Assembly (NCBI RefSeq): GCF_000264495.1
Contig: NC_017954.1
Coordinates: forward strand, 930,001 to 994,000
Direction: 5' to 3'
Length of the DNA: 64,000 nucleotides
Origin: Thermogladius calderae 1633
GTDB taxonomy: Archaea; Thermoproteota; Thermoprotei_A; Sulfolobales; Desulfurococcaceae
The notes beneath the pieces were generated by a model, which saw nothing but the letters and a program-made list of their open reading frames with translations, ran no database searches and was not told the origin of the DNA. Shown here in pieces: positions 34,241 to 36,684 of this stretch; position 1 is the stretch's first letter; every line of letters starts with the position of its first letter. Both the position numbers and the translations under genes were made by a program.

Positions 34241-34888
34241 CTAGCCGGTCCCCCTCTCCGCCCTCGCGTACCTCTCTAGCGACAGCCTGATCCTTAGGGG
34301 GTCGAGGTAGAGCTCGCTGGCCCCGATCTCCATGAGCGTCTTGAAGGCCTCCTCTACGACGCTACCGCCGAAACGCCTCGCGAGGCCGTAGAGCGTCTCG
34401 CTGAAGGACCAGGGGTAGAAGACCCAGACCCACCTCTCGAGCCTCTCCACGTAGTAGTCTGGCACCAGCTTGCTCGTAGACTTGTAGTGTAGCACGGCCG
34501 TCTTCACCTCCCTCGCCCCCATGGACGAGACGAGGCCGACAACCTTGCTCATGGTCGCCCCTGTGTCGACCACCTCGTCTACCACGAGCACCCTCTTTCC
34601 GTCTACTTCGAGGCGCTCGTGCAGCCTCAACTCGGGCTCCTCTCTCACCCGGCCCCCCACGCCCCAGAGCCTGCTCCTCAAGACGACGAGCTCGTCCACT
34701 CCGAGGACGTCGCTGACGATCCTCGCCGGGACGAGCCCGCCCCTGGACACCGCGACCACGACTTCGGGGTCCTCACCCGCGTCGAGCAGCATGGAGGCCA
34801 GCCTGTAGCAGTACTGGAGAGCCTTGCTCCAAGGTATGTAGACCACGTCGACGCCCCTCAACCCAGGCCGCCCCCAGCCCCTCAGCAC
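34241..34888 (-). CDS. Purine phosphoribosyltransferase (Gpt/Hpt-like)
   Basis: 215 aa type I PRTase. PRPP-binding motif [19 protein letters not shown] (residues ~117-135), upstream PPi loop [15 protein letters not shown]. The C-terminal [12 protein letters not shown] resembles archaeal xanthine/guanine PRTases. It salvages a purine base to its nucleotide with PRPP. GTG start overlapping the end of the GMP synthase gene by 7 bases, so the two purine genes are one unit: salvage to XMP/GMP plus XMP amination. Confidence 0.85.
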
Positions 34889-36684
34889 GGCTCGATCGTG
34901 CTCGGCGGCTTACCCGTCACGGCGTACGCCACCATCGTAACGTCGTCGATGCTACTCGTTATCTCCCCCGATATCTCGTCCAGGACCTCGTACGGCAGCC
35001 TCGAGTAGTCCGCCGTCATCGCGTCGGCGCTCTCGACGACCCTCACGATGACCACGAGCCCGTGCCTCCTCGAACCGCCCTTGACCCCCACCCACGTGTC
35101 GTCGCCGACCACTGCGAAGGCCTGCCAGACCCTGTCGTAGAGCCCCCGCCTCCTCAGCACCTTCTCCACTATGGCCGTCGCCCTCCGGCAGACCTCCAGC
35201 TTCCTCCTGTTGAACGGGCCGACCACCCTGGCCGCCAGGCCCGGGCCGGGGAACGGGTGCCTCTTGAGGAAGTAGTCGGGCAGGCCCAGGGCTCTGGCGA
35301 GCTCCCTCACCTCCTCCTTGTACAGGTGCCTCAGCGGCTCGAGCACGGCGTACTTCTCCCTGAACCAGGTGGGTAGGCCGGCCACGTTGTGGTGCGTCTT
35401 TACCCTGCCGCCGCCCGGCCTACCGCTCTCCACAACGTCCGGGTATATCGTGCCCTGGACAAACACCCCGGCCCGGAACTCCGTCATCAGCTCGTCGAAC
35501 ACCCTCGCGAACTCCTCTCCAATCACCCTCCTCCTCTCCTCGCAGTCTGCCAGCCCCTCCAGCTTGCTCAGGAACCTCTCCCGCGCGTCCACGTAGACCG
35601 GCTCTAGGCCCGCCCTCTCAAGCTCCTCCCTGACCTCCTCCACCTCCCCCTCCCTGAAGAGGCCGTGGTCCACCAGCACCGGGACCAGCCTGTCGCCGAA
35701 GACCCTCCTCGCTAGCAGCGCGGCTGTAGCCGAGTCCACGCCCCCGCTCACGGCTGCCACGACCCTCCCAGGTGCGCCCGCGTACCTCTCCAGCTCTTGC
35801 AGCGCCAGGTGGTAGTAGGCCTCCACGCCCCAGCCCCTCACGGCCCCGGCCAGCCTCAGGAAGTTGTCCAGGAGTACCAGTCCCCTCCGCGTGTGGTGGG
35901 CCTCGGGGTGGAACCGCACCCCGTAGACGGGCCTCCCGTTCACCTCGGCCCTGAAGGCCGCCACGGCACCGTCCTCCGACACCGCGAGGACGGTGGAGCC
36001 GGGGGGCGGCTCGAGAACGCACCCTCCCCGGCCCACCCACGCCTCCTCTGTCTCCCCCCACCCGTCGAAGACGGGGTCCCTCACCAGCACCCTGACCCTC
36101 GCCGTGCCTTGCCCCCCGCACGCCTCGACCTCGAAGTACTCCGCGCCGGACAGGCTGTAGAGGTTGACCAGCGCGTGCAGCGTCTCGGGGACGACCCTGA
36201 GGGGCTGCGGGGGCCTCAGGTGCTTGTAGGCCTCGCGGGCCCCGCCTACGTCCACCCTGACCTCGCGCAGCTCCGGGTGGAACTCTATGAACTTGAAGGC
36301 CCACCTGGGCATGTAGCCGAAGAACCTGTAGCCGTACCTAGCCTCGTCCCTCACGAGGAGGTACCTGGCCCTGCAGTCCCCCGCCTTCAGGCACTTCTGG
36401 AGGAGGATCAGGGCGTAGATCTTCCGGCCGGGGGTTATGTCGAGGACTACGCGGCCCGGCAGCTCGAGGGACGCCCAGGCCCTCAGGTCGTCGCCCAGGA
36501 CCTCGACTCTGAGGCCCGCCCCCACCGCCTCCGCGAGCTCCCGCAGCCGCCGCTGCTCCGCGTCGCCCACCTGCGCCTCCGAGACGACCACCACCTCCTC
36601 GAAGCGTTCGCCGGTGAGGAGCTCGTAGCCCAGCGAGCCCGCCAGGACCTGCAACCTGGGCGAGTACTGTAGAACCAGCCTCAT
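34882..36684 (-). CDS. guaA: GMP synthase with CARF-like N-terminal domain and truncated glutaminase domain
   Basis: 600 aa. Residues ~285-600 are a full GMP synthetase part: P-loop [56 protein letters not shown] and the dimerisation end [20 protein letters not shown]. Residues ~194-279 align with only the second half of a class I glutaminase ([16 protein letters not shown], His/Glu kept). The first half with the Cys nucleophile is missing. Residues 1-~140 instead resemble a Rossmann-like CARF domain ([18 protein letters not shown]). Glutamine hydrolysis should be lost, so ammonia from solution or a partner is implied. Next to cas6. Confidence 0.85.

Follow-up and report, generated by a model that had tools for sequence, protein, structure and literature searches.

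The 64,000-nucleotide window of the Thermogladius calderae 1633 genome analyzed here contains an intact gene of 600 codons (complement 34882-36684, ATG start, stop codon included) that, by its sequence, is a natural in-frame chimera of two gene families. Its N-terminal part is the CARF domain of a CARF-PIN effector, and the remainder, from about residue 193 to residue 600, is a GMP synthetase (GuaA) minus the first half of its glutaminase domain. We think it probable that the gene is the scar of a deletion that joined a type III effector gene to guaA, leaving a working, ammonia-dependent GMP synthetase on which the CARF domain is a hitch-hiker. The combination of CARF and GuaA is a new variant as a domain architecture, but probably not new as a system; in the literature we found nothing linking CARF with GMP synthase, no match for "CARF-PIN" as a term and nothing relevant for the PDB entry 9JXW.

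The CARF domain (residues 1-191, complement 36112-36684) was delimited with the PADLOC model CARF_PIN (PDLC01068), which matches residues 4-196 of the fusion with an E-value of 2.1e-35, with alignments, and with PDB entry 9jxw, a solved "PIN domain-containing protein" that is a relative of the CARF-PIN family. When the whole protein was searched against 99 related genomes, a second set of matches was confined to residues 1-193, and these relatives, which PADLOC calls CARF_PIN (L111 at E 1e-135), are complete proteins encoded by frames of their own, about 400-480 codons long, and carry a PIN-like domain (DTNV...) at the C-terminus. The window CARF domain shares 51% identity with the corresponding half of the nearest CARF-PIN relatives, and up to 53% in whole-genome searches. 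A profile built from 12 CARF domains found 9jxw at E 2.8e-57 as its sole strong PDB match, and the window domain as a single sequence found the same entry at E 1.1e-5. The motif D-[IV]-T-P-G-R-K, conserved throughout this CARF family, reads DITPGRK (residues 82-88), and is joined by RY (107-108), E114, GY (118-119), GYxP (123-126) and N174; in the alignment with CARF-PIN relatives, the fusion retains 23 of 24 conserved positions. The profile match and the D-x-TPGRK motif are accompanied by a Rossmann-type order of strands and helices in the predicted secondary structure (E2-7, H13-24, E30-35, H41-53, E57-62, E79-83, H88-100), for which model confidence is low. Folded alone, the CARF part gave a mean pLDDT of 47.8, and structure searches with the full-length model returned GMP synthetases for the rest of the protein and barely probed this part, so the assignment of the fold rests on sequence homology, by which the N-terminus is a true CARF domain. 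A sequence-only reading of this DNA had already proposed a CARF-like N-terminus and was right to do so, since the domain is homologous to the first 190 or so residues of CARF-PIN proteins of 400-470 aa. The same reading had recognized that non-GuaA residues precede the enzyme but put their number at about 140, where we find about 191, and its likeness to Csa3 did not hold up: the PADLOC, 9jxw and relative matches place the domain in the CARF half of CARF-PIN effectors (CARF_m3), not in the CARF3 branch of Csa3. No CARF relatives were found in viral contigs. Separately, one genome (G216:C1:1350579-1351192) has a broken second CARF-PIN copy with internal stop codons in addition to an intact one.

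Homology switches from CARF-PIN to GuaA within about nine residues, at a junction that the alignment of both families places at residues about 188-196 (ACGG before the joint, QGTAR after it; complement 36097-36123). At this point the CARF-PIN relatives continue EACGGRAEF and the GuaA relatives read GCGEYGRVRV, and the two gene families have a short TGYGG similarity. Homology to the effectors ends at about residue 191-196 without a PIN nuclease domain, and the joint falls in the middle of the glutaminase domain and not at a domain boundary. Neither the PIN half nor the glutaminase front half was found elsewhere in the genome; a full-length GuaA query recovered only the fusion ORF, from query residue 123 on, and nothing else below E 0.9. 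The fusion is the sole GuaA match in this genome. The CARF family occurs in 36 of 229 genomes of the class, is joined to GuaA only here, and in that search was carried by no other genome of the same taxonomic family.

As had been noted from the sequence, the ATP pyrophosphatase/GMP synthetase part is intact and only the back half of a class I glutaminase remains. The NCBIfam model NF000848 matches residues 193-598 with 409.5 bits, TIGR00884 (the ATPPase/C-terminal equivalog) covers residues 305-598, and GMP_synt_C matches as well. The NF000848 score exceeds its cut-off of 400 bits, and automatic annotation would therefore name the fusion as glutamine-hydrolysing, a misnomer whether the protein is read as a captured or as a regulated enzyme. 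In the glutaminase remnant (GATase I; residues 193-282, complement 35839-36108) the GATase profile is covered only at positions 114-187 of 190: HPE is kept, the elbow with the nucleophile Cys is absent and the Cys-His-Glu triad is incomplete. The ATP pyrophosphatase domain (residues 305-480, complement 35245-35772) has SGGVDS at 313, YPDVVES at 414, the D/E helix, the lid-loop KTHHN and HPFPGPG at 476, and the C-terminal dimerisation and XMP-binding domain (residues 485-600, complement 34885-35232) keeps the KPPxTIE motif as KPPSTIE and has the change D537G. In published work the loop of D537 is placed at the XMP phosphate. The lid reads VKTHHN, where the described pattern is IK(T/S)HHN; lid and C-terminal motifs of GMP synthetase are described in PMC9312489 and PMC10526850. 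Over residues 187-600, the protein is 69% identical to GuaA from a genome of the same family.

To compare the domains, near-invariant columns were counted in an alignment of the window protein with about 104 GuaA sequences. Six of 16-17 such columns are broken in the glutaminase remnant, 2 of 39-42 in the ATPPase domain (I428V and D457E) and 1 of 36 in the C-terminal domain (6/17 against 2/39 and 1/36, Fisher p 0.001), while other GuaA sequences average below one broken column per domain. Four of the six lie in one motif, with WMSHGD changed to WVGRGG and Q257 and V262 also broken, and the overall divergence ratio of the remnant is 1.33, a mild rise over the 1.20 (sd 0.21) of other pairs. The argument for relaxed constraint is therefore moderate, and the remnant, its overall divergence being just mildly raised, retains its strand framework, which is modelled with a pLDDT of about 78-94.

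Directly downstream is a gene for a xanthine/6-oxopurine phosphoribosyltransferase-like protein (PRTase; complement 34241-34888), whose true start, by comparison with the ortholog in G028, is probably at about 34852. The order guaA-PRTase is identical in G028 (L123) and G033 (L010), and the two genes are an ancestral operon pair. PRTase orthologs that are 73%, 63% and 46% identical occur in three genomes (G020, G022 and G016, respectively), all of which have guaA. No GuaA match was found in the same-genus genomes G001-G003 or in other near-complete members of the family, and the same-genus genomes have only distant PRTase paralogs. No IMP dehydrogenase scored over the cut-off in the window's genome or in the guaA-bearing relatives tested. 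From this gene content the pair is best read as salvaging xanthine, which would pass through XMP to GMP.

By tree the nearest GuaA to the fusion is that of G033, a genome of the same family (contig C2, L010:1153-2715), which is full-length and has a catalytically dead glutaminase, with SIGGSYS in place of the Cys elbow GICFGHQ and NPE in place of HPE. A tree built from residues 290-600 alone pairs it with the window protein as sisters (support 97/96). The two have seven ATPPase/C-terminal states that are private to the pair and absent from 25 other relatives, among them I428V, V485A and D537G, where all 25 of those relatives are invariant; with any other sequence, at most one such private state is shared. 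The roughly 7 kb that flank the G033 guaA on each side have no cas-like ORF. These sequence comparisons suggest that the pair forms a small lineage of glutaminase-less GMP synthetases, and that loss of the glutaminase probably preceded the fusion or was independent of it. Either the ancestor of the pair had already stopped using glutamine or parallel change occurred in two lines; in both cases the loss would be independent of the CARF domain.

The deletion that we favor can be set out as follows. In the sequence, a CARF-PIN effector's CARF domain, together with the helices between its domains, leads directly into the back half of the glutaminase; the event would have taken away the PIN nuclease and the front half of the glutaminase. 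It may have accompanied the loss of a type III-B module, with the short similarity at the joint at hand, and it would have been tolerated because the glutaminase was already dispensable in this GuaA lineage. The product would convert XMP to GMP using ATP and free ammonia in place of glutamine, as ATPPase subunits and two-domain enzymes are able to do with external ammonia (PMC10526850), and its XMP would be supplied by the adjacent PRTase (xanthine + PRPP to XMP), not by IMP dehydrogenase. The CARF domain would then most likely serve as a leader that is passive or structural, its cognate messenger being absent from the cell. An ordinary ammonia-dependent enzyme with a degenerate domain had been the fallback of the sequence-only reading; it is what fits best, and the dead glutaminase of the G033 sister lends it independent support. 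The main evidence against passivity is the retention of 23 of 24 conserved CARF positions, more than one would expect if the domain did nothing, save in a fusion of recent date; the fusion is young, or else there is some reason why the CARF domain still folds or binds. D537G, which sits in the XMP-phosphate loop, could impair the enzyme. Also against the deletion reading, we found no locus, empty or intermediate, that would show the event, and no cas genes in any guaA neighborhood scanned.

The fusion lies, as previously recognized, beside cas6 (complement 36749-37708), a gene of the same strand located 64 bp upstream of it. Beyond it are a CRISPR array of about 49 repeats CTTTCAATTCTTCTTGATTGCTTC (37783-40945, forward strand), the adaptation genes cas4, cas1, cas2 and cas4 (41307-44010, forward) and a csa3 gene encoding CARF3 and HTH domains (complement 43998-44756). 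The type I-A system in the window is complete, with its interference operon at complement 13626-20934: cas3'' (13626-14546), cas3' (14507-16387), cas8a (16404-17597), cas5a (17652-18581), cas7a (18588-19664), cas11a (19674-20099) and a csa3 paralog (20233-20934). The genome thus has two Csa3 paralogs of CARF-HTH type beside type I-A and no detectable Cas10. The region from the I-A operon to the fusion gene contains a 465-aa ORF (30594-31991) with no Pfam or PADLOC match.

Cas10, the cyclase of type III systems, was not found in the window's genome with the Pfam palm model PF22335 or with a profile made from seven Cas10 proteins of the same order, and a profile search for RAMP subunits was also empty, so that there is no known source of cyclic oligoadenylate in the cell. 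The sensitivity of the Cas10 search is imperfect, as PF22335 scored over its cut-off in 25 of 34 other CARF-PIN genomes and gave no match over it in nine; in four of the nine (G049, G209, G219 and G122), Cas10 was found by neither profile. Either the searches missed some Cas10 proteins or CARF-PIN can persist without the cyclase. The CARF-PIN gene of G047, the nearest relative, is inside a Cmr operon and adjoins cas4 and a csa3-like gene. Besides an intact guaA, the same genome has a decayed fragment of the guaA C-terminus, split over two short frames (L122:5396-5817; G047:C1:75395-75816), about 6 kb from the cas10 of its Cmr locus. We considered guaA and type III loci as regular neighbors and rejected the idea, as none of the 84 other GuaA neighborhoods scanned contained a cas-like ORF; the fragment, being closest to the GuaA of its own and related genomes, was likewise rejected as an instance of such a pattern.

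These surroundings bear most directly on the proposal that the protein is a ligand-gated GMP synthase, in which a CARF dimer would bind a cyclic or linear oligonucleotide, switch the GuaA dimer and shift the GMP/GTP pool upon infection. The proposal is kept in play by the 23 conserved CARF positions, those of the motif included, and both CARF proteins and GuaA are two-fold dimers (PMC9312489). The gene also directly follows cas6 in a dense CRISPR locus, and the genome has kept two CARF-HTH Csa3 proteins although no Cas10 was found in it; some CARF-PIN genomes likewise lack a detectable Cas10. Set against this are the lack of any enzyme found to make the messenger, the occurrence of the architecture in a single genome of 229, a joint in mid-domain, and the G033 sister, whose glutaminase is dead without a CARF domain, so that the loss needs no regulatory explanation. 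We therefore consider ligand gating unlikely. Just as unlikely, in our view, is that the protein adjusts the guanine nucleotide pool in response to an oligonucleotide, whose source might be something other than Cas10 and might also serve both Csa3 proteins. Control by a second messenger, or a GTP-pool effector tied to CRISPR signalling, had been the principal suggestion from the sequence; as it stands it is not supported, since neither Cas10 nor a RAMP subunit was found, no second CARF-GuaA turned up in the 229 genomes, and the 84 other GuaA neighborhoods had no cas-like ORF.

It is also conceivable, though again improbable, that guaA is dispensable here and the fusion an inactive relic still open by chance. 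The lack of a GuaA match in the three same-genus genomes and in other near-complete family members, the lost glutaminase motif and the D537G change would suit a dying gene. A frame of 600 open codons with its ATPPase, lid-loop and KPPxTIE motifs intact, change at merely 3 of 75 near-invariant ATPPase/C-terminal columns, the retained PRTase partner and the full-length open frame of the G033 sister, with the same D537G, speak against this reading. An assembly or sequencing artefact uniting two loci would account for a fusion seen in one genome only, but is very improbable in a single-contig genome (1,356,318 bases, 99.95% complete) where the join is exactly in frame, the missing halves that a mis-join requires are not found elsewhere, and the expected order continues on both sides, guaA-PRTase downstream and cas6 and the array upstream.

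If the deletion reading is true, the gene records the capture, in a single step, of a CRISPR effector's sensor by a housekeeping enzyme, within a small GuaA lineage that abandoned glutamine hydrolysis and in which I428, V485 and D537 are candidate coupling residues. If the regulated reading were true, CARF signalling would act directly on purine synthesis, for which we found no description in the literature; Csa3 was the only experimentally characterized non-nuclease CARF effector at the time of a 2022 review (PMC9704534), and a CARF-HAD phosphatase has since been reported (PMC12715507).

Among known systems, the CARF-PIN type III effectors (PDLC01068/CARF_m3; PDB 9jxw and 9jxx) are homologous to the fusion across the CARF domain and the helices that follow, and differ in having a PIN nuclease where the fusion has GuaA, in a genome in which no Cas10 was found. 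With two-domain, glutamine-hydrolysing GuaA the fusion has in common complete ATPPase and dimerisation domains and a downstream PRTase, whereas it lacks the first glutaminase half with its Cys and has lost MSHGD. The archaeal ATPPase subunits of M. jannaschii and P. horikoshii (6jp9, 2dpl, 3a4i) are likewise synthetases without a fused working glutaminase, and the predicted ATPPase model superposes on them with Z 32 and an rmsd of 2.5-2.9 over 282-291 residues; unlike that two-subunit enzyme, the fusion has no separate glutaminase gene that we could find in its genome, and carries a glutaminase remnant and a CARF domain. The G033 GuaA has the dead glutaminase, the downstream PRTase and I428V, V485A, D537G and four further states in common with the fusion, but retains a full-length degenerate glutaminase and has neither a CARF domain nor a nearby cas-like ORF.
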